Positions 3,354-45,605 of a stretch of DNA of 51,371 nt are shown in pieces. This DNA is from a virus: positions 1 through 51,371 of IMG/VR virus record IMGVR_UViG_3300029787_000079; one strand, given 5' to 3'. Position 1 is the first letter of the stretch; each line of letters begins with the position of its first letter. The notes below the pieces were generated by a model that was given only the letters and a program-made list of their open reading frames with translations, was not told the DNA's origin and ran no database searches. Both the position numbers and the translations under genes were made by a program.

Positions 3354-3368
3354 GAGGTTTTATAGGCT

Positions 3369-4388: not shown

Positions 4389-4394
4389 TAAAAA

Positions 4395-4421
4395 TTGACT
4401 AAATAAATATAATAATATAAA
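4395..4421 (+). promoter_or_regulatory. Promoter-like sequence before 4440 gene
   Basis: TTGACT (4395-4400) and TATAAA (4416-4421) are separated by 15 nt, slightly shorter than the sigma-70 optimum. The TATAAA is part of TATAAATA, which also matches the T4-type late promoter element. It sits in the 51-nt gap before 4440, one of the few gaps in the tail operon. In such AT-rich DNA a chance match is quite possible. Confidence 0.35.
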
Positions 4422-4439
4422 TAAACATAAGGATAAATT

Positions 4440-4931
4440 ATGGCACATTTTGCAGAATTAGAATCAAAAACCGATCCAACAGGTTTCACATCTGACACAC
4501 ATTTAGTTGTAAAAAGAGTTGTGGTTGTAGATAATGGTGTTGTTCCTTCAGATGAACACGTTGATGGAGAAACATGGTGTATTAATTTTTTTGGTGGTGG
4601 TACATGGAAACAAACTTCTTACAATAATAATTTTAGAAAACAATATGCAGGCATAGGTTATGTTTATAATTCATCAAAAAATAAATTTTTACTACCGCAG
4701 CCTTTTGCTTCATGGTCACTTGATTCAAGTGACGATTGGAAAGCACCTATAACTTATCCATCGGTAACAGACGATGGTGAAAGCACCCCTTCATGGTTTT
4801 ATAGCATTTATTGGAACGAAACAGCTTATAATTCAGATAATACAAAAGGTTGGAAAGCAACTAAATCAAACGACGAATCAGAAACCAAAACTATATACGA
4901 TTGGAACGGCACAGCTTGGGTGTCCGAATAG
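4440..4931 (+). CDS. Hypothetical structural protein, 163 aa
   Basis: Function not established. Soluble, aromatic-rich protein with no signal peptide. The N-terminal part (residues 1-40) is followed by a Trp-rich region (GETWCINFFGGGTWKQTSY, WKAPITYPS, WNETAYN, GWKATK, YDWNGTAWVSE). From recollection, similar proteins occur beside tail fibres in marine myo- and podoviruses, where the region carrying YAGIGYVYN and FLLPQPFASWSLD is conserved. It lies between two glycine-rich adhesin-like genes with an AAGGA ribosome site, so a tail-associated role is likely. Confidence 0.6.
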   Translation: MAHFAELESKTDPTGFTSDTHLVVKRVVVVDNGVVPSDEHVDGETWCINFFGGGTWKQTSYNNNFRKQYAGIGYVYNSSKNKFLLPQPFASWSLDSSDDWKAPITYPSVTDDGESTPSWFYSIYWNETAYNSDNTKGWKATKSNDESETKTIYDWNGTAWVSE

Positions 4932-4940
4932 GAGACTTAA

Positions 4941-6766: not shown

Positions 6767-7396
6767 ATGCAACTAACAAATTATTATTGGTATTTTAAAT
6801 CAGCTATTCCTCATAGAATTTGTGATGATATCGTTCGTTATGGAAAATCTATACAAGATCAAATGGCAGTTACAGGTGGGCTTGGTAATAAAAAATTAAA
6901 TAAAAATCAAGTAAAAGATTTAAAAAAGAAAAGAGATTCTAATATTGTTTGGATGAATGATAGATGGATATATAAAGAAATCCAACCCTATGTTCATCAA
7001 GCAAATCAAAACGCCGGATGGAACTTTCAATGGGATTTTTCTGAGTCTTGTCAATTTACTAAATATGAAAAAGGTCAATTTTATGATTGGCATTGTGATG
7101 GTTGGGATAAGCCATACATAAGAGAAGATACAAACGCACCTGATCACGGGAAAATAAGAAAACTATCTGTTACAGTTACATTATCAGATCCAAAAGATTA
7201 TAAAGGTGGTGAGTTAGAATTTGATTTTAGAAATCTAGATCCAGACAAAAAACGTAATGTTAAAAAATGTAAAGAGATATTACCAAAAGGATCTTTAGTT
7301 GTATTTCCTGGTTTTGTTTGGCATAGAGTGTGTCCTGTTAAAAGTGGATCAAGGCATAGTCTAGTAATATGGAATTTAGGGTGGCCATTTAAATGA
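6767..7396 (+). CDS. 2-oxoglutarate/Fe(II) oxygenase, prolyl-hydroxylase type
   Basis: Predicted non-haem iron dioxygenase using 2-oxoglutarate and O2 to hydroxylate a substrate, probably protein or peptide; the substrate is unknown. The facial triad is visible: H109 and D111 in DWHCDGWD and H186 in FVWHRV. R196 in SGSRHSLVIWN is the expected 2-oxoglutarate carboxylate ligand. The sequence GSLVVFPGFVWHRV is the conserved GD/GS-FP...H strand of the PKHD (YbiX-like) class. Length 209 aa is normal. The gene overlaps the next oxygenase by ATGA. It follows the adhesin genes, so modification of virion or host-surface proteins is a possibility, not a demonstrated role. Confidence 0.85.
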   Translation: MQLTNYYWYFKSAIPHRICDDIVRYGKSIQDQMAVTGGLGNKKLNKNQVKDLKKKRDSNIVWMNDRWIYKEIQPYVHQANQNAGWNFQWDFSESCQFTKYEKGQFYDWHCDGWDKPYIREDTNAPDHGKIRKLSVTVTLSDPKDYKGGELEFDFRNLDPDKKRNVKKCKEILPKGSLVVFPGFVWHRVCPVKSGSRHSLVIWNLGWPFK

Positions 7397-8067
7397 GTTT
7401 TCCAAATCAATTAAATTTAGAAGAATATTTTAAATGTCCTATATGGTTTGCAGATGAACCCAAATATGTAAATCAATTAAATAAGGCGTCTGATAAATAT
7501 ATTAAAGAATCTAAAAAAAATATTAAAAAAGATATAAGTAAAAGAAACAAAAAATTTGGAGATAAAGGAGATATGGGTCATGTCTTTCACTCAACTTCTT
7601 TAATAGGAGATCCTAAATTTAAAGATCTAATGGAATATGTAGGTGCAACTTCACATAATTTATTAGGAGAAATGGGTTTTGATTTAACTAATTATCAAGT
7701 GTTTATAACTGAAATGTGGGTACAAGAATTTGCAAAACAAGGAGGTGGTCATCACACTTTACACACACACTGGAACGGACACATGTCTGGTTTTTATTTT
7801 TTAAAAGCAAGTGAAGCAACATCAATGCCAATGTTTGAAGATCCAAGAGCAGGTAATATGATGAATTTATTACCTGAAAAAGATAAAACAAAAGTTACTC
7901 ATGCATCAACTCAGATAACTTATAAAGTAAAACCAGGTAGAATGATATTTTTTCCATCGTATATGCCACATCAATATATTGTTGACATGGGGTATGAACC
8001 ATTTAGATTTATACATTGGAATTGTCAAGCCATACCAAAGAGTGTATTAAATGTCAAAATTAAATAA
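7393..8067 (+). CDS. 2-oxoglutarate/Fe(II) oxygenase, HxHxN type
   Basis: Second oxygenase of the cluster, 224 aa, of the '2OG-FeII_Oxy_5' type in which the metal motif reads HxHxN. The motif is HTHWNGH (H124, H126, N128), followed by SGFYFL, then the distal histidine in FFPSYMPHQ (H193) and R205 in EPFRFIHWN. It is clearly paralogous to the product of 40419-41081; they share GGGH...THxHW...H.SGFYF, DPRxGxMM and PHQ...PFRFIH. The Lys-rich N-terminal third (residues 30-60) is variable. The start overlaps the upstream stop (ATGA). The substrate is unknown. Confidence 0.85.
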   Translation: MSFPNQLNLEEYFKCPIWFADEPKYVNQLNKASDKYIKESKKNIKKDISKRNKKFGDKGDMGHVFHSTSLIGDPKFKDLMEYVGATSHNLLGEMGFDLTNYQVFITEMWVQEFAKQGGGHHTLHTHWNGHMSGFYFLKASEATSMPMFEDPRAGNMMNLLPEKDKTKVTHASTQITYKVKPGRMIFFPSYMPHQYIVDMGYEPFRFIHWNCQAIPKSVLNVKIK

Positions 8068-22925: not shown

Positions 22926-23648
22926 ATGAGTGACGAGAAACAAATGACACTTAAAAAAGAGGCGAGCTTACCTTCAACAATTTTGTTTGAAGATGATGCT
23001 TCCCACGGTTTTGAAAATGTAAAGACAACTAGTTTAGCTTTACCTATTTTAAAACTTTTACAAAATGGTTCAGGAGAAGCGCAAAGACGTAATCAAAATT
23101 ACGTTGAAGGTGCAGAACCTGGTATGCTTTTAAATACAGTAACAAAAAAACTGTATGATGGAGCAAAAGGGGTATCAGTAATACCTTGCCATTACAAACT
23201 AGAATATCAAGAGTGGGCTGATTTTGGAACAGGTTCTGGTAGACCAGAAAATATTTTTCCAGATGGCTCTGATATTTTAGAACAAACAAATAAAGATGGT
23301 TCAGGTAAAGATAGATTGGAAAATGGTAATTACATCTTAACTGTTGGACAACACTTTGTGTTAATCGTTGGTGACGATGGAGCTGAACAAGCTTTAATTT
23401 CAATGAGTTCATCACAAGGTAAGATAAGTAGAAAATGGAATTCAATGATGATGTCCATTTCACTTGACGGAAAGAATGGTCCATACACACCGCCATCATT
23501 TAGCCACTCTTATAAACTAACCACAGTGTTAAATTCTGGTAAAGGTAATCAGTGGTATGGTTATAATGTCATAAAAGAGGGTGCAGTAAAAAATGCAACT
23601 TTATATGAACGTGCTAAAAAATTTTACACTAGTTTAGCTAGCAAATAG
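22926..23648 (+). CDS. Putative single-stranded-DNA-binding-like protein, 240 aa
   Basis: Conserved phage replication-operon protein, tentatively ssDNA-binding. It has no membrane segment and a beta-rich centre (GVSVIPCHYKLEYQEWADF, NYILTVGQHFVLIVGDDG, QALISMSSSQGKISRKWNSM) and a C-terminal NQWYGYNVIKEG segment. Similar proteins occur next to primase/polymerase genes in marine phages, by recollection; the OB-fold assignment is my inference. Unlike classical SSBs it lacks an acidic C-terminal tail (ends YTSLASK). A strong AACAAGGAGA ribosome site precedes it. Confidence 0.55.
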   Translation: MSDEKQMTLKKEASLPSTILFEDDASHGFENVKTTSLALPILKLLQNGSGEAQRRNQNYVEGAEPGMLLNTVTKKLYDGAKGVSVIPCHYKLEYQEWADFGTGSGRPENIFPDGSDILEQTNKDGSGKDRLENGNYILTVGQHFVLIVGDDGAEQALISMSSSQGKISRKWNSMMMSISLDGKNGPYTPPSFSHSYKLTTVLNSGKGNQWYGYNVIKEGAVKNATLYERAKKFYTSLASK

Positions 23649-23688: not shown

Positions 23689-23702
23689 GCTACCGAGTGG
23701 AA

Positions 23703-25241
23703 ATGATAGAACTAGATAAATTTATAAAAATATTTGAAGGCTTAGATAGTGCCTACGGTCAAACTGTCAAAACAGATCAATTTAGCGAAAAGGGTAAACA
23801 CAAAACTAAATCTTTTACAATATCAAATCCTGTAACAAAAAAATTATGGCGAGAACATTTAGAAGGCAAGGATCCAGCTTTAGGTATTGTGCCTATTACT
23901 AAAGAAAACAAATGCAAGTGGGGGTGCATAGATATTGACACTTACCCATTTGATCACAAAAAATTTATACAAAAATTAAAACAAAAAAATATACCTATGA
24001 TTGTATGTCGATCAAAGTCTGGTGGTGCACATGCATTTTTATTTACCAAAGATTTTGTACCTGCAACTGTAATGAGAGTAAAATTAAAACTTATTGCATC
24101 TGCAATGGGTTTTGCCAGTGCAGAGATATTTCCTAAACAAGATTATATAAGAGTTGATAGAGGAGATACAGGTAGTTTTTTAAATTTACCTTATCATGCA
24201 AATGAAAGAACAGTTAGATATGCATATAATTTAGATGGAGGTGTTTTAAAATTACAAGAATTTTTTAATTTGTACGATGAAGTTTCTTTAACTTTAGAAC
24301 AGTTAAATGAGTTAAAAATAGAAAGTGAAAAAGAAAAAACGGATTTATTTAAAGGAATGCCTCCTTGTTTAGTTACATTACTAAGCGATGGTGTGCCTGA
24401 TGGCCAAAGAAATAACTGTATGTATAATGTTGGAGTGTATCTTAAAAAAAGATACCCAGACAAAGAAGAATGGCAAAGTCATATGTTTACTTATAACAAA
24501 CAATTTATGACACCACCGTTGGATGCAACAGAAATAAATACTTTAATAGGTTCATTAGATAGTAAAGAATACAATTATAAATGTAAAGATGAGCCAATAC
24601 ATAGTTTTTGTGATGCTAAAAAATGTGCAACAAAAGAATTTGGTGTAGGAGATAATGCACCAACTCCAGAAATAAATGAAATAAGAAAATATGATTCTGA
24701 TCCACCGATATACTTTGCTTCAATAGATGGTGAAAGTGTTGAGGTGGATGATGCAACATTACACGATCCAGAAAAATTTTCATTGGCTTGCATGAATCAA
24801 ATAGGCAAACCAATGATGCCAGTGCCTAAACATATGTGGCGTAGACTACTTATAAAATTATTTGCAAACTTAGAAACTATACCTGCACCAGAATCATCTA
24901 AATTAGACGTGCAGCTAAAAGAAATACTAGCAGATTATATAAACAAAACTCCAGGTAAAGAACTTAAAGATGTTATGCGAGGTATTGCATTTACAGATAC
25001 AGATGGTTTTACATATTTTAAATTTAAAGATTTTTGGAAATTTTTATTAAAAACAAAATCTTGGGCAGAAAAAACTTACCCTAAACAAAAAACAATGAGA
25101 TTGTTACAATCTTTATTTGAAGCAGAAGAAACATCACCTAAAGTAGGGGTTAAGACTGTAAGATTATTAAAAATGCCTACGATAAAATTGGAAAGACCAA
25201 ACCCTAGAACAACAAAAGTAGAAAAATCACCATGGCTATAG
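23703..25241 (+). CDS. Archaeo-eukaryotic-type DNA primase (PrimPol/TOTE-like), 512 aa
   Basis: Predicted primase making RNA/DNA primers at the phage fork. The N-terminal catalytic domain (residues about 1-200) shows the AEP signature: CKWGCIDIDTYPF (metal-binding DxD), CRSKSGGAHAFLF (SxxGxH) and AEIFPKQDYIRVDRG then FLNLPYH. This arrangement matches the primase of TOTE-like/PrimPol proteins. Residues about 220-300 contain a small alpha-helical domain with Cys residues (HSFCDAKKCATKEFG) that may bind zinc. No helicase motifs follow; that role is probably filled by the next gene. ATG 23703 is chosen; a GTG 6 nt upstream is in frame. It overlaps the helicase gene by 10 nt. Confidence 0.82.
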   Translation: MIELDKFIKIFEGLDSAYGQTVKTDQFSEKGKHKTKSFTISNPVTKKLWREHLEGKDPALGIVPITKENKCKWGCIDIDTYPFDHKKFIQKLKQKNIPMIVCRSKSGGAHAFLFTKDFVPATVMRVKLKLIASAMGFASAEIFPKQDYIRVDRGDTGSFLNLPYHANERTVRYAYNLDGGVLKLQEFFNLYDEVSLTLEQLNELKIESEKEKTDLFKGMPPCLVTLLSDGVPDGQRNNCMYNVGVYLKKRYPDKEEWQSHMFTYNKQFMTPPLDATEINTLIGSLDSKEYNYKCKDEPIHSFCDAKKCATKEFGVGDNAPTPEINEIRKYDSDPPIYFASIDGESVEVDDATLHDPEKFSLACMNQIGKPMMPVPKHMWRRLLIKLFANLETIPAPESSKLDVQLKEILADYINKTPGKELKDVMRGIAFTDTDGFTYFKFKDFWKFLLKTKSWAEKTYPKQKTMRLLQSLFEAEETSPKVGVKTVRLLKMPTIKLERPNPRTTKVEKSPWL

Positions 25242-35198: not shown

Positions 35199-35363
35199 AT
35201 GACTGACATAAGCAAATATAAAAATGTCTCATTATCAAAAGATACTTACACAAAAATTGATAAACTTAGGCGTATAGTCGTGCCAAACACAATTGTAAGT
35301 CGAAGTCAATTAGTAAATATCTTAGTAAATGAAAAAACAGAAAAATTAAACGGAAAGGTTAAA
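35199..35363 (+). CDS. Ribbon-helix-helix-like DNA-binding protein candidate, 54 aa
   Basis: MTDISKYKNVSLSKDTYTKI then DKLRRIVVPNTIVSRSQLVN and ILVNEKTGKIKRKG. The order beta-strand (KNVSLS), helix (KDTYTKIDKLRRIV), turn, helix (SRSQLVNILVNEK) is that of Arc/CopG ribbon-helix-helix regulators, including the short S-x-S-x-L second-helix start. 54 aa is the usual size. It lies 34 nt from an operator-like palindrome overlapping its promoter. DNA binding is inferred from this pattern, not shown. Confidence 0.55.
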
Positions 35364-35365
35364 AA

Positions 35366-35517
35366 TGCTTAACATAACAGAAGAACAAAGAAAAATGCTT
35401 TTAGATTATATGGCAAGAAGACCATATGCAGAGGTGTATCAATTAATTTCAATGATAATGTCTTTAAAACCAATTGAAGAAAAAAAAGATGACAAACCAA
35501 AAAAAGATTTGTCCTAG
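35366..35517 (+). pseudogene. Frame-disrupted small gene (or -1 frameshift gene)
   Basis: ATG at 35366 after GGAAAGG reads MLNITEEQRKML and then hits TAG at 35402-35404. Re-reading one base back at CTT|TAG continues as LDYMARRPYAEVYQLISMIM then SLKPIEEKKDDKPKKDLS to the TAG at 35515-35517. The joined product is a plausible single 50-aa helical protein. Either one T was lost from a TTTT run (mutation or sequencing error), or a -1 frameshift occurs at the stop, or only the 35-aa frame from ATG 35410 is used. Confidence 0.5.
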
Positions 35518-35955: not shown

Positions 35956-36122
35956 CACAAAGTAAGTCAGGTTCTAATGATCTTGAAGAAATTATTAAAA
36001 AATTAAAAGAAAAAGTTGAAGAACTTAAAAAAGAAAATTGGGATGTTAAAAAAGAAAACGATCGTTTAAATGAACATATACAATTAATGGAAATGGAGAG
36101 AGACAAATGGATGACGAAATAA
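35952..36122 (+). CDS. Small coiled-coil protein, 56 aa
   Basis: ATGA overlap with the preceding gene. MTQSKSGSNDLEEIIKKLKE then KVEELKKENWDVKKENDRLN EHIQLMEM shows continuous heptads with Leu/Ile at a/d positions. It overlaps the following oxygenase gene by 16 nt. Probably a dimeric coiled coil; function unknown. Confidence 0.55.
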   Translation: MTQSKSGSNDLEEIIKKLKEKVEELKKENWDVKKENDRLNEHIQLMEMERDKWMTK

Positions 36123-36835
36123 AGAAAAATGATGTAGGTCAAGGAGAAAAGATACGTCTCGACTATCAAATGTTTAGATGGGGGCCTTTGTTAGTTAAAT
36201 TTAAAATACCCGAAGATCTTCGTAAAAAATTTTTAGAAGAAGCTTATGCTAGCAACAAAGATTTTGAAAAAAATTTAGCTGGTATTATAACAAAAGAAGT
36301 TGGTTTTAGGAATATAGAAATGTTTAAACCTTTCTTTCATACAATTTTTGAAATGTATGCAGACGCGCAACTTAAATGGGCACCAGAGGTAGGGGCTACA
36401 AGAGAAACGTTTAAGCAACAGTATTTAATAGAGGCTCTTTGGGCAAACTTTCAAGGCCCCGGTGATTTTAATCCACCACACGATCACGGTGGTACTTTGT
36501 CTTGGGTTATATTTTTGCAAATGCCTAAAGAGTTAATAGAAGAAAGAAATAAGTACAAAGGTCGTAGCGCCGGACCCGGTGGATTGACTTTCATATATGG
36601 TGAAGGCCCAAGAAACTACATAAGCCATCACTCTTTCTTTCCTGAAGAAGGAGATATGTTCATATTTCCTGCAACGTTAAAACATTGGGTGTTCCCATTT
36701 AAAAGTGATTGTGTCAGGATATCTGTATCTGGCAACGTAAATGATTCTATTAAATATAAAGATCTTAAAAAATTGAAGGAGGTTAAAAAAAATGAACAAG
36801 AAAACAATACAAGCGATAATAAAGAGACAATTTAA
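36107..36835 (+). CDS. 2-oxoglutarate/Fe(II) oxygenase, HDH type, 242 aa
   Basis: Fourth oxygenase, far from the tail cluster. The metal motif PPHDHGG (H125, H127) is followed by TLSWVIFLQMP. The distal histidine is H193 in ATLKHWVFPF and the 2-oxoglutarate-binding arginine is R204 in CVRISVSGNV. PGGLTFIYGEGPRNYISHHS lies in the strand region. Preceded by GGAGAGAG. The C-terminal 30 residues are a charged tail (KDLKKLKEVKKNEQENNTSD). It differs clearly from the HxHxN/D pair at 7393 and 40419. The substrate is unknown. Confidence 0.8.
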   Translation: MDDEIKKNDVGQGEKIRLDYQMFRWGPLLVKFKIPEDLRKKFLEEAYASNKDFEKNLAGIITKEVGFRNIEMFKPFFHTIFEMYADAQLKWAPEVGATRETFKQQYLIEALWANFQGPGDFNPPHDHGGTLSWVIFLQMPKELIEERNKYKGRSAGPGGLTFIYGEGPRNYISHHSFFPEEGDMFIFPATLKHWVFPFKSDCVRISVSGNVNDSIKYKDLKKLKEVKKNEQENNTSDNKETI

Positions 36836-37010
36836 TTTAATTATTGATGAGGAAAAAAAATTAAAAAGTGTCTTGAATATGGAAACGAATGACGAGCATC
36901 CAGAATCTTTGTTTAACGGTTTATATACAAAAGCTGAACAGCATTTAGATGAAATTGTAAGAGCTCAAAACAAAATAGTTTTACTAGAAAATATAATTAA
37001 TCCAGAGTGA
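36792..37010 (+). CDS. Small helical protein, 72 aa
   Basis: MNKKTIQAIIKRQFNLIIDE then EKKLKSVLNMETNDEHPESL and FNGLYTKAEQHLDEIVRAQN KIVLLENII. All-helical with amphipathic repeats. It has one of the strongest ribosome sites in the window (GAAGGAGGT) within the end of the oxygenase gene, so it overlaps that gene by 44 nt. Function unknown. Confidence 0.6.
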   Translation: MNKKTIQAIIKRQFNLIIDEEKKLKSVLNMETNDEHPESLFNGLYTKAEQHLDEIVRAQNKIVLLENIINPE

Positions 37011-37582
37011 GTAAAACTAAAATTTGTAAAATTTGTAAAAAATATTTTTCTTTAGATATGTTCTACTTAAGTAAAAATGGTAGATATAATTTCTGCTGCA
37101 TACCTTGCGATAAAAAACGAAAAGCTGTGTATAGGTTTGAAAATAAAGAGAGAATTGCATTAGCAGAATATAAGTATATGAACACAGAAAGAGGCTATGT
37201 CATGGAAGTAATTAATGGAATATTTTATAGACATAAAAGAAAAAATGCAAGACTTAAATGGGTGCCTGAATGTACTAAAGAAGAAATTTACGCAGAGCTC
37301 ATGTTATATATACAAGACCATGGTCGCAATTGTGAATATTGCAAAGAACCTTGGACTTATAAAAGAGTGTTAGTTGGAAAAGATAGAAAGTTTAATGGAC
37401 GTGGCCCGAAGATAACAACTAATTTTTCTATTGATAGATTAGATGCAACTCAAACTTATAAATTAGATAATTTAGTTTTTTGTTGTGTTGGTTGCAATTT
37501 AAGAAAAAATCAAGTAAGGTTGTCGGACATATTTAACATCATACGTGTGTATGAAGAAAGAAAGAATAATGAAGTGGAATAA
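37007..37582 (+). CDS. HNH-type endonuclease with zinc knuckles, 191 aa
   Basis: Predicted nuclease, possibly homing or recombination-associated. The N-terminal zinc finger is KICKICKKYFSLDMFYLSKN with CCIPCDKKRK. A second Cys pair is NCEYCKEPW. The HNH-like core TTNFSIDRLDATQTYKLDNL VFCCVGCNLRKNQ contains Asp-Arg plus the N and Cys-x2-Cys positions; the usual His appears replaced by 'IDR', so the fold is HNH/ENDO VII-like rather than canonical. The start is GTG at 37007, overlapping the upstream stop. It overlaps the next nuclease gene by 14 nt. Confidence 0.7.
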   Translation: MSKTKICKICKKYFSLDMFYLSKNGRYNFCCIPCDKKRKAVYRFENKERIALAEYKYMNTERGYVMEVINGIFYRHKRKNARLKWVPECTKEEIYAELMLYIQDHGRNCEYCKEPWTYKRVLVGKDRKFNGRGPKITTNFSIDRLDATQTYKLDNLVFCCVGCNLRKNQVRLSDIFNIIRVYEERKNNEVE

Positions 37583-38240
37583 ACTATATAATTATCCGAA
37601 GACCGTAAGATCTTCTATTGATGGAGTACGTAAATATGATGTTAATGACGAGAAATTACCTAGTGTCACGACTATATTAAAAGCCACTGAATCTGAAGAT
37701 AAGAAAGAATCTTTATCTCGTTGGAAAGATAGGGTCGGCGAAGTTGAGGCAGATAGAATTAAAAATGTAGCGGCAACTAGGGGAACTGCTATGCACACGT
37801 ATCTCGAACATTATATTAAAGGTGGCAAGGTGCTCGATTTAACCGACGTGGGGCGAGAGGCGAGTAGCATGGGTCAAATGATTATTGACAAAGGATTTAG
37901 TGACTTGGAGGAAGTATGGGGCGTCGAGTGTACACTACATTATCCGGGTCTATACGCTGGTCAAACTGACATGTGTGGAATTTATCAAGGACGCGAAAGT
38001 ATAATAGACTTCAAGCAATCGAACAAGCCCAAACGTGCCGAGTGGATAGATGATTATAAATTACAACTTGTTGCATACGCTATGGCGCATGACCAAGTCT
38101 ATGGAACGAGGATCGAGCAGGGTGTTATTTTGATGTGTACACCGGATAATTTCTTTCAGAGGTTTCTAGTGAATGGCAGCGAGTTTCGGAAGTGGAAATG
38201 GGAGTGGCTAAAAAAGATTGACCAATACTATAATTCTTAA
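37569..38240 (+). CDS. PD-(D/E)XK exonuclease, RecB/Cas4-like, 223 aa
   Basis: Predicted DNA exonuclease for replication or recombination. SVTTILKATE and TRGTAMHTYLEHYIKGG give the RecB-family motif I. GLYAGQTDMCGIYQGRESII then DFKQSNKPK give the D...DxK catalytic core. DDYKLQLVAYAMAHDQVYGT is the QxxxY motif. This set defines the Cas4/RecB-type PD-(D/E)XK nucleases. The ATG at 37569 is preferred (GAAAGAA upstream). The gene is noticeably more GC-rich (about 37640-38200) than its neighbours, which may reflect transfer. Confidence 0.85.
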   Translation: MKWNKLYNYPKTVRSSIDGVRKYDVNDEKLPSVTTILKATESEDKKESLSRWKDRVGEVEADRIKNVAATRGTAMHTYLEHYIKGGKVLDLTDVGREASSMGQMIIDKGFSDLEEVWGVECTLHYPGLYAGQTDMCGIYQGRESIIDFKQSNKPKRAEWIDDYKLQLVAYAMAHDQVYGTRIEQGVILMCTPDNFFQRFLVNGSEFRKWKWEWLKKIDQYYNS

Positions 38241-38416
38241 ATTTTTTTATTCTTAAGTTTTTTAATTTTAATACATTCATTAATAATTTCATCCATTAAA
38301 ATATACATAGGATGTTGTTCGTATAAACTACCAGTGGATACCATCATATCTATCATAGATGCAGATTGTTTTATTTTTTCTTTAGTAAGAGTTATGGTTA
38401 TTTTATTTTTATTCAT
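38237..38416 (-). CDS. Small ribbon-helix-helix-like/helical protein, 59 aa
   Basis: MNKNKITITLTKEKIKQSAS then MIDMMVSTGSLYEQHPMYIL and MDEIINECIKIKKLKNKK. The start KITITLTKEKI followed by two helices could be an RHH-type or HTH-like small regulator; not certain. Preceded on its strand by ACGAGGGCACTT, a good ribosome site. Overlaps the nuclease stop by 4 nt (convergent). The upstream gene's stop overlaps its start. Confidence 0.55.
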   Translation of the reverse strand: MNKNKITITLTKEKIKQSASMIDMMVSTGSLYEQHPMYILMDEIINECIKIKKLKNKKI

Positions 38417-38654
38417 AAGTGCCCTCGTATTGACTTAAATTAGGTAGACTTTCTGATCTTGTTCCTGTGTCAGCCCCTACAGTTTTGTTATTGAGAAGAC
38501 ATGGTCCGTAAAGATTTATAAATTCCCAATTTATGTTATTGGGATTTTTTAAATCATGTCTTATATTTTTAAAATATATTTTTCTATTCTGTTTGGACAT
38601 TTTTAATTTTTTAGTTTGTGTTTTTAAATGGTTTAATTCTTTATTTATTAACAT
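38409..38654 (-). CDS. Small hypothetical protein, 81 aa
   Basis: Not recognised. MLINKELNHLKTQTKKLKMS then KQNRKIYFKNIRHDLKNPNN and LYGPCLLNNKTVGADTGTRS. Basic helical first half with a different, Ser/Gly-rich end. The start could be 38654 or the internal ATG at 38600; the longer reading (38672) lies inside the promoter and is unlikely. Followed by overlapping coupling to 38237-38416. Confidence 0.5.
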   Translation of the reverse strand: MLINKELNHLKTQTKKLKMSKQNRKIYFKNIRHDLKNPNNINWEFINLYGPCLLNNKTVGADTGTRSESLPNLSQYEGTYE

Positions 38655-38661
38655 ATAATCC

Positions 38662-38689
38662 CTTATAATCATTTAAATGTAAGTGTCAA
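38662..38689 (-). promoter_or_regulatory. Minus-strand promoter next to origin-like region
   Basis: On the minus strand: TTGACA (complement of 38684-38689), 16-nt spacer, TATAAG (complement of 38662-38667). A perfect-armed palindrome TATAATCCCTTATA (38654-38667) overlaps the -10, reminiscent of the TATAGGATATTATA elements elsewhere. It would direct the 38654 and 38416 genes away from the origin-like region. Confidence 0.55.
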
Positions 38690-38795
38690 ATTTTAATTTT
38701 AATTTTTGTACAAAAAATACAAAACTGCGACATAAGTATACAGATTAAGGCAACAATGTGGCGAAATCATAGAATAGCCGCACTTTTTGCAAACC

Positions 38796-38835
38796 AAAAG
38801 TGTGGAAGAGGGTATCAAAAAACCCCATAAAATGA
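38796..38835 (+). repeat. 40-nt imperfect direct repeat, copy 1
   Basis: Matches 38880-38919 closely. Both begin AAAAGTGTGGAA and end CATAAAATGA. Each contains a small inverted repeat (here GGGT...ACCC) around tcaaaaa, so each could form a 4-5 bp hairpin. The copies are spaced 84 nt apart, about eight DNA helical turns. Confidence 0.75.
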
Positions 38836-38879
38836 CATTTGCAAAAATTTTTTGTGTCGATTTTACGAAATTTAGGGGC

Positions 38880-38919
38880 AAAAGTGTGGAAACGGGTGTC
38901 AAAAACCCGCATAAAATGA
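38880..38919 (+). repeat. 40-nt imperfect direct repeat, copy 2
   Basis: Second copy. The internal inverted repeat is CGGGT...ACCCG. The hairpin arms differ from copy 1 by compensating changes (G-G-G-T/A-C-C-C kept, outer pair C/G added), suggesting that the stem, not just the sequence, is preserved. Confidence 0.75.
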
Positions 38920-39219
38920 ATTTTTTTTTCAAAAATGTGGAAAATGTGGAAAGTCAAAATGATTAGAATTGTTGATATACAAGGAAACTAGACGATTTCC
39001 ACATTTCCACACTTTTCAAAATGTTTTTGGTCGTGTAAGTCTTCAAAAGTTTTTTAGGTCTTTATTTGTGGAAAAAAGCCAAAAATCGATTATTAACGTT
39101 GGTATACAATAAAAGTAGCTTCCACATTTTTAAAACTAAAAATGTGGAAAATGTAGAAAGGCGCAATTACCAACACTTTTTCGCATTTAAAAATGTGGAA
39201 GAAATGTGTAATAAGTGTA

Positions 39220-39372
39220 ATGACAGAAAAAGATTTTTGGGATAAATTTAATTCAAAACACAATCCAAGATATTATTATGCCAAAAAGAAGACAGAAGAG
39301 AAAAACAAAGAGAAGGATAAAGAACAAAAAAATTATACCTCTCAATTTAAAATCTTTAGGAAACAAGATTGA
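39220..39372 (+). CDS. Possible small basic protein, 50 aa
   Basis: MTEKDFWDKFNSKHNPRYYY followed by AKKKTEEKNKEKDKEQKNY. First frame after the origin-like region. It overlaps the conserved frame 39278-39622 for 95 nt in another frame. Composition is Lys/Glu-rich and could be real, or the region could be the 5' leader of the next gene. No ribosome site beyond GTGTAA. Confidence 0.3.
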   Translation: MTEKDFWDKFNSKHNPRYYYAKKKTEEKNKEKDKEQKNYTSQFKIFRKQD

Positions 39373-39622
39373 GGCATACCCATTTGTGGAAATTGAATGG
39401 AGTGATATCGAAGGGGATGCTGGTTGGTCTGATACTAAATCATTAAACAAAGAAGAACTACCAACGTGTGTCTCCAAAGGTTACCTTGTTAGTCAAAAAA
39501 ATGGTATTACAAGAATATTTACAGATTACATAAAAACAAAAGATAAACCTACATTTGATAGTATTGGCAACACAACCATAATCCCAACGGCAGTAATACA
39601 ATCAATTAAAAAAATTAATTAA
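39278..39622 (+). CDS. Conserved small phage protein, 114 aa
   Basis: The basic N-terminus (MPKRRQKRKTKRRIKNKKII) is followed by a compact domain: KIEAYPFVEIEWSDIEGDAG, WSDTKSLNKEELPTCVSKGY, LVSQKNGITRIFTDYI and TTIIPTAVIQSIKKI. The domain pattern 'P.V.I.W.DI.GDAGW...........C.S.GYL......I.I...' is remembered from many marine phages. Function unknown; it could bind DNA near the origin. The stop is convergent with, and overlaps, the small terminase stop. Confidence 0.6.
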   Translation: MPKRRQKRKTKRRIKNKKIIPLNLKSLGNKIEAYPFVEIEWSDIEGDAGWSDTKSLNKEELPTCVSKGYLVSQKNGITRIFTDYIKTKDKPTFDSIGNTTIIPTAVIQSIKKIN

Positions 39623-40139
39623 GTTTTTTTAATTTTGGCAACCTTGATTCTTTAACATCTTTTTTAATTTTTTTTGTCATATCTTTCATTTCAACACCTT
39701 CAAGAATAGGTGAGTATTGATCTATAATATCCTTCATCCTCGTTTCTAGCTCCTCCGCACTCAAATCATCTATCTTACCGGTTCGTATAATTTTCTGTTC
39801 AACATATAATCCGGCAGCTTTACCTCTTGCAACCTCTGCGTTAGTTGCGGCAGAAAAAGCCCCTTTCTTTAATGCGTTCTCTCTTATTTTAGCAAGTTCC
39901 GTGATGTGTCTCTCAAAAGTTACCGCATACTTTTTTTGATTTTCTTCACGGAGCTCACCAATGTATTTAACTACGAGAGGGTATTTTTTTGGATTTTGTA
40001 ATTCGTAAGCTCTTATTCTTGCCGCCTCACCATAACCGGCCTCTTTTGCACATTCTGTGCCATTCATTCTACCTTCATTAGCAACAACTAATTGAGCAAA
40101 TTTAATTTGTTTTTCTGTTAATCTTTTAGGAACTCCCAT
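39615..40139 (-). CDS. terS: Terminase small subunit, 174 aa
   Basis: DNA-recognition subunit of the packaging motor. The N-terminal helix-turn-helix region LTEKQIKFAQLVVANEGRMN followed by GTECAKEAGYGEAARIRAYE is typical of Terminase_2-type small subunits, followed by a coiled oligomerisation region (VKYIGELREENQKKYAVTFE) and a Lys-rich C-terminus. The start at 40139 (MGVPKRLTEKQ) is preferred to an upstream in-frame ATG at 40175, which lies inside the promoter. It is on the opposite strand and nearly 6 kb from the large subunit. Confidence 0.85.
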   Translation of the reverse strand: MGVPKRLTEKQIKFAQLVVANEGRMNGTECAKEAGYGEAARIRAYELQNPKKYPLVVKYIGELREENQKKYAVTFERHITELAKIRENALKKGAFSAATNAEVARGKAAGLYVEQKIIRTGKIDDLSAEELETRMKDIIDQYSPILEGVEMKDMTKKIKKDVKESRLPKLKKLN

Positions 40140-40142
40140 ATG

Positions 40143-40175
40143 TTGACGTATAGAGTAATTTAAGGTACAAGTCAA
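40143..40175. promoter_or_regulatory. Bidirectional promoter, both genes leaderless
   Basis: Plus: TTGACG (40143-40148), 17-nt spacer, TACAAG (40166-40171), ATG at 40180. Minus: TTGACT (complement 40170-40175), 17-nt spacer, TATACG (complement 40147-40152), small terminase ATG at 40139. Each ATG lies 7-8 nt after its -10, so both transcripts should begin at or next to the start codon. The two -35 elements are the arms of an inverted repeat (TTGACGTATA / TACAAGTCAA). Confidence 0.65.
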
Positions 40176-40179
40176 CTTT

Positions 40180-40419
40180 ATGATTGATGCGAAATTAATT
40201 CGTCAAGTATTAGATAAGTTTTTGAAAGCAGAAACAGTTAAAAATGCTAGAATGCAAGTTCAAACTTCTGATGGTGTATTTCATGATATTAAATCTATTA
40301 AATTATTAGAAAATAGAATTATAGGTCATAGAGAAACACATAGAATAGTAATACAAGTTATACCAGAAAAAGCTCCAATGGGTAAAGTTGTTAAAGATCA
40401 TGGTGGGATTGTTCTTTAA
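40180..40419 (+). CDS. Conserved small phage protein, 79 aa
   Basis: MIDAKLIRQVLDKFLKAETV then KNARMQVQTSDGVFHDIKSI KLLENRIIGHRETHRIVIQV IPEKAP. A helix followed by a beta-domain; the 'DIKSIKLLEN.IIG.RETHRIVI.V.P' segment is remembered from marine phages. Probably leaderless (no ribosome site; see the promoter entry). Divergent from the small terminase and coupled to the oxygenase gene by TAATG-like overlap. Function unknown. Confidence 0.65.
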   Translation: MIDAKLIRQVLDKFLKAETVKNARMQVQTSDGVFHDIKSIKLLENRIIGHRETHRIVIQVIPEKAPMGKVVKDHGGIVL

Positions 40420-41081
40420 TGACCGAATTAAAGACAATTTCTTTATTTGACACATTTATTTATCAAGCAGAAATACCAAAATATTTAAATGATAAAGATT
40501 TTATGAATGTTTGTAATGAACATACAGATAAAGCCATAAAAAACACACAACAAAAAATTATAGAAAGACAAAAAAAATATAAAACTGATATAAAAGATCA
40601 CGGCTTGTCTTATCATTCTGACGAAAAATTATATCAAGATAAGCGATTTTACAATTTTGAATTATTAATAAGAAACACTGCTCGAAATATTTTAATAGAT
40701 CAAGGATTCGATTTAGATAATTATTCTTTAAATTACACTGAAATGTGGATACAAAAGTTTGCTTTTGAGGGTGGGGGTCATCAAGATACACACGTTCACT
40801 GGGATAATCACATATCTGGTTTTTATTTTGTTGATTGTTCTGAAAGAACATCAAAACCAATTTTTCATGATCCTCGTCAAGGTCGTATGATGTTAAACTT
40901 ACCTATTAGAGACCACTCTAAACTATGTCCAGCTATGGAAAGACAGATTATAAAAGTTAAACGTGGAACGCTTTTAATGTTTAATTCTTGGTTGCCCCAT
41001 CAATTTAGTGTTGATGATGGTATTGATCCGTTTAGATTTATACATTTTAATTTACAGGCAAAATTAAACAGTGAAAGATGA
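40419..41081 (+). CDS. 2-oxoglutarate/Fe(II) oxygenase, HxHxD type, 220 aa
   Basis: Fifth oxygenase, paralogue of 7393-8067. The metal motif is THVHWDNH (H125, H127, D129) before ISGFYFV. FHDPRQGRMMLNLPIRDHSK follows. The distal histidine is in FNSWLPHQ (H194) and R206 is in PFRFIHFNLQA. The 7393 homologue has Asn where this one has Asp at the third position, which may alter metal or substrate chemistry. The N-terminal third is helical and charged. Preceded by a coupled small gene. The substrate is unknown. Confidence 0.85.
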   Translation: MTELKTISLFDTFIYQAEIPKYLNDKDFMNVCNEHTDKAIKNTQQKIIERQKKYKTDIKDHGLSYHSDEKLYQDKRFYNFELLIRNTARNILIDQGFDLDNYSLNYTEMWIQKFAFEGGGHQDTHVHWDNHISGFYFVDCSERTSKPIFHDPRQGRMMLNLPIRDHSKLCPAMERQIIKVKRGTLLMFNSWLPHQFSVDDGIDPFRFIHFNLQAKLNSER

Positions 41082-42887: not shown

Positions 42888-43172
42888 TTATCCTTTCTGC
42901 TCGCTTGCTTGTTCTTTTAATTTATAATCTGGTATTTCTATTTCATATATTAAAAATGAATCTGTTTTATGCTCATATTCATAATAAAATGTTTTATTCC
43001 AATATTTATTTTCTAAATGTGAAATAAACCCATCAATCCAACAATCATCATCACCATTAAAATAATTTTCATTTTTAATTTCTGGATATTCTTTTTTACA
43101 ATATTTTTTAAACTCTTCACTTATCAACCATAAAGATTTAACTCCACCTACTTCTAAATATAAAGTTCTCAT
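42888..43172 (-). CDS. Small acidic protein with QASEQKG C-terminus, 94 aa
   Basis: Not recognised. MRTLYLEVGGVKSLWLISEE followed by FKKYCKKEYPEIKNENYFNG and an aromatic-rich second half (NKYWNKTFYYEYEHKTDSFL). It ends KLKEQASEQKG, an ending shared with the next two upstream genes. The sequence encoding the tag also carries the next gene's ribosome site (CAGAAAGG). Acidic, no membrane segment. Confidence 0.55.
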   Translation of the reverse strand: MRTLYLEVGGVKSLWLISEEFKKYCKKEYPEIKNENYFNGDDDCWIDGFISHLENKYWNKTFYYEYEHKTDSFLIYEIEIPDYKLKEQASEQKG

Positions 43173-43173
43173 A

Positions 43174-43395
43174 TTATCCCTTCTGCTCGCTCGCTTGTTG
43201 TTTTAATTCTATTCCGTCTTGTTCTAAATGATCTAATAAATTTAAACTTTTTGCCATATCTTCTGCTGTTTTTGGACAAATACAAAAAGCCACAGTATTA
43301 ATTTTACCATTTTGAAAATCATATTTTACAGCAACATCGTCTGAAAAATAATTACCTTCAAAATCCTCATCGTGTATCATATCATTTGTTATCAT
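43174..43395 (-). CDS. Small protein with QASEQKG C-terminus, 73 aa
   Basis: MITNDMIHDEDFEGNYFSDD then VAVKYDFQNGKINTVAFCIC PKTAEDMAKSLNLLDHL. It ends ELKQQASEQKG. Two Cys in VAFCICPK. Start after AGAAGGGATAAT. The body differs from its neighbours, so only the tail and spacer are shared. Function unknown. Confidence 0.55.
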   Translation of the reverse strand: MITNDMIHDEDFEGNYFSDDVAVKYDFQNGKINTVAFCICPKTAEDMAKSLNLLDHLEQDGIELKQQASEQKG

Positions 43396-43396
43396 A

Positions 43397-43549
43397 TTAT
43401 CCCTTCTGCTCGCTCGCTTGCTCGCTTGTTAGTTTAAAATGCGATGCTTTGGTTAGGTCAATCCCCGCTACTAACACCGCATTTATTCGCACAAAATTAA
43501 ACATCCTGCACAAATCCTTTAAAATCTTTTTTGTTTTTTTATATTTCAT
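43397..43549 (-). CDS. Small basic protein with QASEQKG C-terminus, 50 aa
   Basis: MKYKKTKKILKDLCRMFNFV then RINAVLVAGIDLTKASHFKL and TSEQASEQKG. The ATG at 43549 is used because the longer frame (from 43630) would run through the TTGACT/TATAAA promoter at 43563-43590. The first nine residues come from the duplicated 67-bp cassette, so the gene was made by joining the cassette to a new coding sequence. Function unknown. Confidence 0.45.
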   Translation of the reverse strand: MKYKKTKKILKDLCRMFNFVRINAVLVAGIDLTKASHFKLTSEQASEQKG

Positions 43550-43591
43550 ACTTTCATTTATTTTTATATAATATCCTATATATAAGTCAAT
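43525..43591 (-). repeat. 67-bp direct repeat copy 1: promoter plus start cassette
   Basis: Identical to 43861-43927. On the minus strand it holds TTGACT (complement 43585-43590), 16-nt spacer, TATAAA (complement 43563-43568), the TATAGGATATTATA element (complement 43567-43580), the leader and the ATGAAATATAAA start. Here it provides both the promoter and the first codons of 43397-43549. Confidence 0.85.
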
Positions 43592-43593
43592 CG

Positions 43594-43848
43594 TTATTTC
43601 CCCTCTTTTATTTCTAATTGATGAACACATTTACCATATTTGTCAAATAAATATCCATTAGCTTGACAATGTTCTATGATGTCAGTTTCTTCCCAATCAC
43701 TAGGATAATCTAATTTTGTAACTATATTACCATTTTCATCTTCGTCTTCATAATCAAACGGTAATTTATCAAGCCAAATTTTTACATGAACTTTGCTATC
43801 ATCACTCAAGTCTTGGTAATTATAAGCATTTATTTTTATTGTTTCCAT
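43594..43848 (-). CDS. Small acidic protein, 84 aa
   Basis: METIKINAYNYQDLSDDSKV then HVKIWLDKLPFDYEDEDENG and WEETDIIEHCQANGYLFDKY. Asp/Glu-rich (pI clearly acidic), with KIWLDKLPFDYEDE as the most conserved-looking part. The ribosome site GAGAGGAAT lies 5 nt before ATG. The small, acidic character is common in host-takeover or antirestriction proteins; no specific assignment. Confidence 0.55.
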   Translation of the reverse strand: METIKINAYNYQDLSDDSKVHVKIWLDKLPFDYEDEDENGNIVTKLDYPSDWEETDIIEHCQANGYLFDKYGKCVHQLEIKEGK

Positions 43849-44332: not shown

Positions 44333-44557
44333 CTATTGGTTCATTTCTTTTTGTAATGCTGATTTTACTAATTCATAATTTTCAGTATAACCACCATCAA
44401 TCAAAGCAGTTCGAACTGCTTTATTGTCCTTGTTATGTGCATATACAAAATTCTTTTCTGTTGGAAATTTCTTTCCATTTATATGAACAGTAACACCTTG
44501 TAAGTAACCAAAATAATATTTTGGCTTAACTAATATTTTTAATTTATCTATGTTCAT
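44333..44557 (-). CDS. Small hypothetical protein, 74 aa
   Basis: MNIDKLKILVKPKYYFGYLQ then GVTVHINGKKFPTEKNFVYA and ALIDGGYTENYELVKSALQK. Beta-rich with no membrane segment. The ATG at 44557 is chosen because CCAAAGGAGAA lies 9-14 nt upstream; an upstream ATG overlaps the previous gene. Coupled by two bases to the 44927 gene. Confidence 0.5.
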   Translation of the reverse strand: MNIDKLKILVKPKYYFGYLQGVTVHINGKKFPTEKNFVYAHNKDNKAVRTALIDGGYTENYELVKSALQKEMNQ

Positions 44558-44558
44558 A

Positions 44559-44927
44559 TTAATTATTCTCCTTTGGTTCAAAACTTAAGATAATATTAGC
44601 CATAAACAACCAGTAATTTTGTTCAACTTTAGACCTTAATTTGTCGCTTGGATTAGGATCTATTGAACCCATTTTGACAGCTAGATTAACAATATCATCA
44701 TAATAATACTCAATATTTAAAGCCAGCCCGCCTAACCATTCCGCGATTGCTTTTTGTTTTCCAACTCTCTCAACCATAAAACCATATTCAGAATAAAACT
44801 TATCAAAAATATAATTAATCTTCTCTTGATCTGTTTTTAATGGTTTCCCTTCTCCGTCTTCTTCAATTGTTGACAAAATATAATTTTTATAATTTTTTTT
44901 ATATTCTGTGTGATGTAGTTTTGTCAT
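44559..44927 (-). CDS. Conserved phage protein, 122 aa
   Basis: MTKLHHTEYKKNYKNYILST then KTDQEKINYIFDKFYSEYGF, MVERVGKQKAIAEWLGGLAL and NIEYYYDDIVNLAVKMGSID, ending FMANIILSFEPKENN. The 'KTDQEKI.YIFDRF.SEYG..IERVGKQ.A..EWL.GLA' block is remembered from marine phages. Soluble and helical. First gene of the minus-strand block after its promoter. The ATG at 44927 is preceded by AAAGGATATAAAACA. Function unknown. Confidence 0.65.
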   Translation of the reverse strand: MTKLHHTEYKKNYKNYILSTIEEDGEGKPLKTDQEKINYIFDKFYSEYGFMVERVGKQKAIAEWLGGLALNIEYYYDDIVNLAVKMGSIDPNPSDKLRSKVEQNYWLFMANIILSFEPKENN

Positions 44928-44954
44928 TGTTTTATATCCTTTCATTAAGATTAA

Positions 44955-44982
44955 ATCTTATAATATCCTATATATATGTCAA
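44955..44982 (-). promoter_or_regulatory. Minus-strand promoter for the accessory block
   Basis: TTGACA (complement 44977-44982), 16-nt spacer, TAAGAT (complement 44955-44960), with TATAGGATATTATA (complement 44959-44972) between them. It drives the 44927 gene; downstream genes have additional copies of the same element. Confidence 0.6.
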
Positions 44983-45266
44983 CTCTTTGTACTCTAAAAA
45001 ACAAACTTTTTTTGACCTATTTTATAGGCGCATTTATTCAATTAAAACGTGTGTTATTCTAGTTTATAATGGCTCTAATCTATAAAGTCATTAAAAGTCA
45101 CTTACTTGCAAATTACAACCTTTGGAAGATGCTCAAAAGTTCCCCGCTCCTCGTCTCTTGCAACTGGTAAGTGTAAGCTAAAGCTGTGGTATTTATGCAA
45201 CAGTATTTGAGAGACGGGAAACTAGAGACTCATTAAAAATAAATAAGACTCATTAAAAATAAATAG
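44983..45266. other. Non-coding divergent region with structured stretch and 20-bp tandem repeat
   Basis: No credible gene. Between 45139 and 45222 complementary segments can pair: TTCCC (45140-45144) with GGGAA (45216-45220), CGTCTCT (45152-45158) with AGAGACG (45210-45216), and TTGCA (45158-45162) with TGCAA (45196-45200). This gives an interrupted long stem with a small internal AGCT...AGCT element. AGACTCATTAAAAATAAATA is repeated in tandem at 45226-45245 and 45246-45265. It could be a small RNA, a processed leader or a protein-binding site; not tRNA-like. Confidence 0.45.
45226..45265 (+). repeat. 20-bp perfect tandem repeat
   Basis: AGACTCATTAAAAATAAATA occurs twice without a gap. It lies directly upstream of the TTGACT of the next promoter, where an activator or repressor would bind, or marks a recent insertion. 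Confidence 0.8.
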
Positions 45267-45295
45267 TTGACTTTACTTGTGGGAGATTATAGGAT
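45267..45295 (+). promoter_or_regulatory. Plus-strand promoter of the 45321 gene
   Basis: TTGACT (45267-45272), 17-nt spacer, TAGGAT (45290-45295). TTATAGGAT within it resembles the TATAGGAT half of the recurring element. The start codon at 45321 follows with GGAG at 45309-45312. Confidence 0.55.
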
Positions 45296-45320
45296 TTAAA
45301 AAACAAATGGAGAAAAAACA

Positions 45321-45605
45321 ATGAATAAAAAATATGGAATATTAGAGTATCAAGCGCCAAGTTGGTCGGCTCATAAGTATTATTATAAGAGCATTGATCT
45401 TGAGGATGTCGGTCATGATTGGTTTGATTGTTTAAATGACGATCAACAAGCATACGTTCAACAAATGCCAAAATACTCACATCTTAATTATGATGAAGTA
45501 ATAAAACAATATGACAAGGATATTTTACCTAAATATATAAAATATCAAAAGTCTTTAGGTTGGGCTTGTGATAGTCAAGGGAATATAATAGGCATTATTA
45601 AATAA
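45321..45605 (+). CDS. Hypothetical protein of an isolated transcription unit, 94 aa
   Basis: MNKKYGILEYQAPSWSAHKY then YYKSIDLEDVGHDWFDCLND and DQQAYVQQMPKYSHLNYDEV. Acidic and aromatic-rich with one Cys; no membrane segment and no family recognised. It has its own promoter (45267-45295) and terminator (45625-45657) and sits alone between the minus-strand block and the large terminase, opposite in strand to its left neighbours. This is the organisation of a phage moron (an acquired, independently transcribed cargo gene). Confidence 0.6.
   Translation: MNKKYGILEYQAPSWSAHKYYYKSIDLEDVGHDWFDCLNDDQQAYVQQMPKYSHLNYDEVIKQYDKDILPKYIKYQKSLGWACDSQGNIIGIIK

Follow-up and report, generated by a model that had tools for sequence, protein, structure and literature searches.

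Origins of the lambda type carry phage iterons that are bound by the initiator O, are lineage-specific among lambdoids, and lie inside the initiator gene. In the Vibrio cholerae satellite PLE, the ori and the DNA-binding domain of RepA covary, and the phage nuclease Odn is thought to drive iteron turnover (PMC8263062). Repeats also occur at packaging sites. The pac site of SPP1 has direct repeats near the small terminase (TerS) gene, in three sets spanning the start of that gene, and the box repeats of SPP1 and SF6 differ though their TerS proteins are exchangeable (PMC4737164). In HK97, an HNH nuclease upstream of the terminase helps cos cleavage (PMC10448857). Here, we investigated an array of the word TGTGGAA at positions 38757-39201 of a 51,371-base virus record (IMGVR_UViG_3300029787_000079), which was analyzed at its whole length and is called the window below. 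The record is kin to the cultured pelagiphages HTVC027P and HTVC023P and to 023Pt_psg01, with 67-72% DNA identity around the region. The stretch looks like a phage multi-site protein-binding element, and the role that suits it best, if still tentatively, is that of a replication origin with iterons. Our literature search, which covered few subscription journals, returned no account of the origin, packaging site, or array of these phages, and the array is not described in the available parts of PMC9599517, PMC8263062, PMC4737164, PMC11066056, and PMC10448857.

Arrays of lineage-specific words upstream of orfX

The window has 17 copies of TGTGGAA against 8.16 expected, a count that none of 100 shuffles got to, and 10 of these copies fall in 38801-39200, seven on the plus strand and three on the minus strand. 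The initial annotation had described about ten copies in both orientations within 445 non-coding bases, and this holds up well: 2,000 shuffles of 38757-39201 give a mean of 0.12 copies and a maximum of 2, and no 445-base stretch of the record is denser in the word. Such crowding of short-word copies in a small non-coding region is a feature of iteron origins. An AT-rich unwinding region, another such feature, was not seen, and the earlier description of the stretch as extremely AT-rich was too strong, as it has 67.9% AT versus 66.1% for the record, with just local A/T runs. The copies are paired in tandem 8-9 bp apart, and inverted sets lie 52-53 bp apart with a TTGATATAC/TTGGTATAC element between them. 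The open reading frame (ORF) list holds no convincing gene in the region around the array, which sits at a strand switch and close to two nuclease genes and the TerS gene, all as first annotated (Table 1). Cumulative GC skew, proposed at the time as a check for an origin, does peak at the array (12.48 at 38501-39500) before going down to 10.13 by 44501-45500 and then up. This turn is ambiguous because its falling part coincides with a run of ORFs on the minus strand at 41.4-44.9 kb, so that gene orientation is no worse an explanation for it than an origin.

Using the conserved ORF to the right of the array (orfX) as an anchor, we fetched 80 viral contigs and scanned the 700 bases upstream of orfX. 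TGTGGAA was present in 3-10 copies at 15 of the 80 loci and in 0-2 copies at the other 65. When read directly, the TGTGGAA-poor loci were found to have arrays at the homologous place that are built from different words. The lineage-specific words include TGTGGAAA, that of the window's clade, as well as TCGCGACAC and TGCGATACC. Conservation of the repeats, on which the initial annotation had staked the origin idea, is thus partial, with the word kept in close relatives and replaced by others farther off. A de novo word search allowing one mismatch found TTGTACCC 11 times in L021, GTGTCGCA 13 times in L057, TCGCGACA nine times in L064, GGCGGTAG seven times in L046, CTACTACC six times in L030, and CTGTGCCA seven times in 023Pt_psg01, with every one of 20 shuffles exceeded in each case. 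The HTVC023P array, which is located upstream of TerS at about 11.68-11.77 kb of its record, also passes this search, and the HTVC027P array (about 14.75-14.95 kb) fails it with a score equal to the best of 20 shuffles.

The gene order exonuclease, array, orfX, TerS is kept in most loci. TerS follows orfX on the opposite strand in 243 of the 260 loci with both genes and precedes it in 17. The 243 loci in canonical order reduce to 166 nonredundant ones, and a convincing array is absent from part of them: 107 of the 166, some of them with words of low complexity, reach an array score of 13, and 62 arrays represent these 107 below. Words in the nonredundant set include TGTGGAA, TGTGTAA, GGTACAA, TGGAACA, TGTAACA, GGTAGTA, CGTTACA, GGTTACA, CTGTGAC, TGGCACA, CGATACC, GCGACAC, CGCGACA, and CTACCGC, and the same word is retained across divergent phage backbones. 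In HTVC023P-type contigs, the array word is TACACCA, GGACACC, AGGGACA, GGGACAC, or GATACAC, and most of the arrays take up about 100 bp. Several of these contigs (L006, L022, L073, L044, and others) have a second array, with 6-9 copies of AACGAGA/CTCGTTC within 450 bp, 0.3-1 kb downstream of orfX.

A second element recurs with different words: against 5.0 expected, ATACCAA/TTGGTAT occurs in 33 of the 62 representatives, and CGCATAAAA occurs in 14 of them against 0.3 expected. Sites for IHF between the iterons are not supported, with nine matches in the 62 arrays versus 4.4 expected and a shuffle maximum of 10. The recurrence of TTGGTAT, which in the window lies between the inverted iterons, together with the strand switch, would suit an operator in which sites for a phage regulator surround a promoter, with TTGGTATAC as what we take to be an extended -10 element. 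However, a sigma-70 scan returned four promoter-like sites versus 3.6 by chance and none at the TTGGTATAC element, and the only gene rightwards before the convergent TerS is orfX, a small target for about 10 sites. An operator appears unlikely.

Where arrays can be aligned, the words change in concert. Between L350 and L339, TGTTACA becomes TGTGACA in five of six array copies and in one further copy, located where the exonuclease frame ends, and between L057 and L064, GCGATACC becomes GCGACACC in most copies. Such changes would be well explained only by selection from an agent that reads the word. Same-orientation copies are also in helical phase, as in iteron origins, with a best period of 10.7 bp. 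The TGTGGAA class (11 loci, 52 pairs) has a power of 22.2 at 10.5 bp, versus 1.2 after jittering, and the other words (35 loci, 234 pairs) have 75.7 versus 1.4, with 0 of 200 jitters as high in either case; this set is a hand-chosen 46 of the 62 representatives, jittering is a weak null, and the arrays are related and so not independent. Opposite-orientation pairs show a weak 10.5-bp phase for TGTGGAA (4.5; 0.010 of jitters) and no clear one for other words (0.15 versus 1.1). Phasing of this kind resembles that of sites bound cooperatively in a nucleoprotein complex. Computation shows the array itself, the conservation of its place, the lineage-specific words, their concerted changes and phasing, and the lack of tracking with TerS described below; binding by a protein, the identity of that protein, and a role as an origin are inferred. 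A functionless array, produced by neutral repeat expansion or mobile mini-repeats, seems very improbable: simple repeats do spread and homogenize, and the lineages do differ in their words, but the place beside the same genes is fixed, the copies are phased and in both orientations, and a word can persist across divergent backbones.

Proteins considered as readers of the words

The initial annotation had pointed out that TGTGGAAAA is one base off the DnaA box TGTGGATAA and had offered a phage origin that recruits host DnaA as one reading. The resemblance is there, and three of the 10 window sites (38936, 39067, and 39143) match TTWTNCACA, which we take to be the relaxed consensus. TGTGGAA arrays also accompany several TerS types, and a phage-encoded reader is missing in the clade of the window. 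As a sign of DnaA, however, the likeness is misleading. Unlike a bacterial oriC, the 22 TGTGGAA-class arrays contain no canonical DnaA box (TTATCCACA). Their 213 TGTGG sites are followed by AA in 159 cases and by AT in none. Unlike the DnaA box, the sites also have a conserved run of A on their 5' side: of 128 distinct sites, 121 have A at -3. A DnaA origin would also have a conserved box in phages whose hosts are related, and here the homologous arrays of sister phages are built from quite different words, a variety not compatible with a host protein whose site is fixed. DnaA was therefore rejected as the reader, and an origin or control site that recruits it through TGTGGAAAA boxes is largely refuted and highly improbable. 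Different words at the same place point instead to a site for a fast-evolving phage protein. The other reading offered, an array for a phage initiator, fares better in kind, since place, lineage-specific words, concerted change, and phasing all support an array for a phage protein; that this protein is an initiator can only be suggested.

TerS was first suggested as the reader by L057 and L064, where the aligned proteins differ by seven substitutions, three of them in the helix-turn-helix (HTH), alongside the word change. TerS is also what a packaging-initiation (pac/cos-like) site would involve, where the terminase starts and TerS or a partner binds the repeats. In favor of such a site, the array lies near the TerS gene, an HNH nuclease gene, and an exonuclease gene, an arrangement that recalls both the SPP1 pac repeats (PMC4737164) and the nuclease-aided cos cleavage of HK97 (PMC10448857). 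However, the L057/L064 hint dissolves with 160 more loci: the two forms of the HTH accompany the same words, and several words are found with a single form (L248, L244, L249, L257, and L264). In the L030-type clade, one TerS HTH accompanies six words (TGTAACA, TGTCACA, GGTTACA, CGTTACA, TGGAACA, and GGTAGTA). TerS similarity does not track the shared word once other genes are regressed out (partial Mantel r -0.07, p 0.87-0.89). Because identical TerS HTH sequences accompany different words, TerS was dropped as the reader. Covariation of its DNA-binding domain with the site is not strictly required for packaging, since pac repeats can differ while TerS stays exchangeable, as between SPP1 and SF6, two related phages whose divergent repeats near the TerS gene are the likeness to our arrays (PMC4737164). 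There are also differences: SPP1 pac extends across the beginning of the TerS gene, with three sets of direct repeats, whereas here orfX separates the array from TerS and the array is one word in helical register. On balance, packaging is a conceivable but not a probable role.

An association scan of 63 protein families over 41 records or genomes gave the highest deltas for a 240-aa protein (0.23) and the primase (0.22). An unannotated HTH protein of about 127 aa, which we call WRNVL after a conserved stretch, was fifth (0.15), and the exonuclease (0.05), TerS (0.03), orfX (-0.01), and TerL (-0.02) were lower. The two leading proteins were rejected as readers because they are 97-99% identical in G015 and G001, whose words are GGTTACA and GGTAGTA, respectively. 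In G014 and G015, frame shifts break the genes for the 240-aa protein, the primase, and the helicase; these may be sequencing errors, and a possibly faulty contig weakens the argument from G015.

WRNVL is encoded upstream of the exonuclease in the related clade and is the best trans-acting candidate there. Its identity is 86-100% within the GGTAGTA class, 94% within GGTTACA, and 43-44% between G001 and G015. The hypothesis was built on 20 genomes, and 20 more were added later. The first partial Mantel test used 40 of 48 loci (a 49th piece, G024, lacks TerS); G053, HTVC027P, G072, G050, and G048 were left out for want of a word or protein, and G032, G033, and G023 because their word was off the list. 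G019 and G062 were assigned to the TGGAACA class by eye, against the hypothesis, and shifted word forms were merged by hand. With TerS, exonuclease, and a ribbon-helix-helix (RHH)-like protein regressed out, WRNVL identity tracks the word with r 0.386 (p 0.0005, 36 genomes), 0.443 after dereplication (p 0.0005, 32 genomes), and 0.281 in the added genomes alone (p 0.004). An initiator that covaries with its word is expected of an iteron origin; WRNVL, a candidate that tracks the word, is seen in the related clade but is absent from the window. Nearest-neighbor prediction of the word from the first 20 genomes succeeded in 15 of 17 cases with WRNVL, 8 of 17 each with TerS and with the Zn-ribbon protein beside WRNVL, 8 of 13 with RHH, and 6 of 15 with orfX.

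Two other neighbors were set aside as readers. An association of the exonuclease with the word is expected by linkage because its gene touches the array, whereas the WRNVL gene sits beyond it, beside two poorly predicting genes; we judge the exonuclease to be linked to the array rather than to read it, despite equal prediction. In RHH, the presumed DNA-contact strand is unchanged across several words, and its partial Mantel value of 0.16 (p 0.002-0.018) is below that of WRNVL, though above zero, and falls to -0.06 in the added genomes alone.

The AlphaFold model of WRNVL has a mean predicted local distance difference test (pLDDT) score of 71.6, with about 83-93 in the core, and helices 68-76 and 81-99 form a predicted HTH. 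In the model and in sequences sorted by class, the residues specific to each class lie where the last long helix, the recognition helix of this predicted HTH in these relatives, begins. It begins LDGx(L/I)VRKK in all TGTAACA and TGTCACA proteins bar that of G058 and LDHNxVRKKVIKT in all GGTAGTA proteins. Neither by sequence nor by fold did WRNVL match a known DNA-binding protein: a fold search with the model gave nothing with E <3 in the PDB and, in a viral library, an uncharacterized marine virus protein at best (E 0.014), and a sequence search of PDB chains gave nothing credible.

Several results weigh against WRNVL as the reader. It ranks behind the 240-aa protein and the primase in the all-genome scan, and in the added genomes alone the adjacent exonuclease equals it in prediction (15 of 17 each) and has a partial r of 0.358 (p 0.003). 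G058 pairs a TGTAACA word with a GGTAGTA-like helix, G019 and G062 pair a GAACA-type word with an unrelated helix, and G042 and G060 have a common helix start, LDGSLVRKKVNQ, with words that differ by one base. The window has no WRNVL homolog (best hhalign probability of 1.1% over 62 families, against 98.9 and 99.3% for controls), and none was found in the six other TGTGGAA-class genomes at E 1e-4. A contrast of the TGTGGAA and AGTAGAA classes gave no clear candidate for a class-specific reader. Because there is neither a WRNVL homolog nor a clear substitute in the window, a mechanism there can be proposed only by analogy with the relatives.

Coordinates and neighboring genes

Coordinates of the array, its parts, and nearby genes are listed in Table 1.

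Table 1. Features of the window (positions from its first base) and, in the last row, arrays in HTVC023P-type contigs (contig positions).
Feature	Position	Strand	Description	Basis
Non-coding region with array	38673-39277		Between minus ORF 38409-38672 and plus ORF 39278-39622	ORF list, sequence
Iteron array	38757-39201		10 exact TGTGGAA in both orientations; near copies TGTGGCG (38757), TGTAGAA (39152)	Motif count
Iteron	38801-38807	+	TGTGGAA	Motif count
Iteron	38885-38891	+	TGTGGAA	Motif count
Iteron	38936-38942	+	TGTGGAA (TGTGGAAAA); tandem pair member 1, 9 bp spacing	Motif count
Iteron	38945-38951	+	TGTGGAA; tandem pair member 2	Motif count
Inverted iteron	38997-39003	-	Pair member 1, 8 bp spacing	Motif count
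Inverted iteron	39005-39011	-	Pair member 2	Motif count
Iteron	39067-39073	+	TGTGGAA (TGTGGAAAA)	Motif count
Inverted iteron	39120-39126	-	Perfect 13-nt inverted repeat with 39143-39149, 4-nt loop	Motif count, repeat search
Iteron	39143-39149	+	TGTGGAA (TGTGGAAAA); other arm of 13-nt inverted repeat	Motif count, repeat search
Iteron	39194-39200	+	TGTGGAA	Motif count
46-nt direct repeat, copy 1	38795-38840	+	Iteron, GGGT..ACCC mini-stem, CATAAAATGA; CGCATAAAA-type element seen again in relatives	Repeat family D3
46-nt direct repeat, copy 2	38879-38924	+	85% identical, with AACCCGCATAAAATGA	Repeat family D3
Inter-iteron element 1	38956-38991	+	TTGATATAC at 38972-38980; inverted iterons 52 bp apart around it	Repeat family D4
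Inter-iteron element 2	39083-39118	+	TTGGTATAC at 39099-39107; inverted iterons 53 bp apart around it	Repeat family D4
240-aa protein	22926-23645		Rejected as reader	
Primase	23697-25238		Rejected as reader	
RHH-like protein	35199-35372	+	57 aa	Fold judged by sequence pattern
50-aa ORF	35365-35517		After RHH gene; WRNVL gene here in related clade	
Endonuclease VII-like HNH nuclease	37007-37582	+	phrog_1035	
PD-(D/E)XK exonuclease	37545-38240	+	phrog_298; left boundary gene in relatives	
orfX	39278-39622	+	Conserved 114-aa ORF, phrog_25889, function unknown; anchor for homologous arrays	
TerS	39615-40175	-	phrog_51; convergent with orfX; tested and rejected as word reader	
HTVC023P-type arrays	L006 2457-2557; L022 2669-3092; L054 2302-2396; L073 776-870; L074 2064-2160; L044 353-458			

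A WRNVL-family gene lies less than 1 kb from the array in five of the six HTVC023P-type loci compared. Within the window array, the inverted iterons at 39119-39150 can form a 14-pair hairpin that is followed by a T-rich run on the minus strand, a terminator-like arrangement (0.2 expected). The nuclease slot beside the exonuclease holds the endonuclease VII-like HNH gene in the window and a LAGLIDADG-like ORF in G021, G037, and G038, called by eye from the motif AGLFDGEG, so the nucleases adjoining the array appear interchangeable. Three paralogous 2OG-Fe(II) oxygenase genes are present (7393-8067, 36107-36835, and 40419-41081), one of them near TerS. At 42888-43630 on the minus strand, three successive small ORFs share the C-terminal ...QASEQKG, and the end of one frame perhaps doubles as the ribosome-binding site of the next gene. 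Finally, positions 3000-6700 have a GC content of up to 0.43-0.52 and many CCACCACC words, unlike the remaining record.

Proposed role of the array

We propose that about 10 copies of a word of about 10 bp (AAAATGTGGAAA) would be displayed on one helical face around the recurring TTGGTATAC-type element, where a phage-encoded, sequence-specific protein may bind them cooperatively. Such a protein and its word would evolve rapidly and jointly, and WRNVL is the best trans-acting candidate for it in the related clade. The array would then most likely act as a replication origin with iterons. Among the roles considered, we place an origin first, though only tentatively, then packaging, and then an operator.

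An origin of this kind would be similar to that of lambda in having lineage-specific phage iterons and a phage initiator. Unlike in lambda, where the iterons are inside the initiator gene, the array here is intergenic, no O-like protein was found, and the replication genes are about 15 kb away, a distance that also counts against an origin. The likeness to PLE is in non-coding iterons that change between close relatives along with a DNA-binding protein (PMC8263062), and iterons in helical phase whose DNA-binding protein evolves fast and covaries with them would have the look of a phage-specific origin. Differences from PLE are that the arrays here repeat a 7-10-bp word 6-12 times, in both orientations, that the protein in the relatives belongs to a different, unannotated HTH family, and that the window array has no known reader.

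A more speculative and rather unlikely extension is that pelagiphages and their kin have a self/non-self tag for replication or packaging, made up of a small DNA-binding protein of hypervariable sequence and the phased, repeatedly re-coded array of its word. The HNH or LAGLIDADG nucleases that competing phages encode beside the array may possibly attack it, and the clade of the window would have swapped the HTH reader for a different protein while keeping the architecture of the array.

These phages are kin to cultured pelagiphages that are reported to be abundant in the ocean. Naturally occurring combinations of an HTH protein with a DNA word, which in close relatives are one to a few bases apart, would be material for studying how a small phage HTH shifts its specificity, and the array is a concrete site for origin tests in the culturable relatives HTVC027P and HTVC023P.
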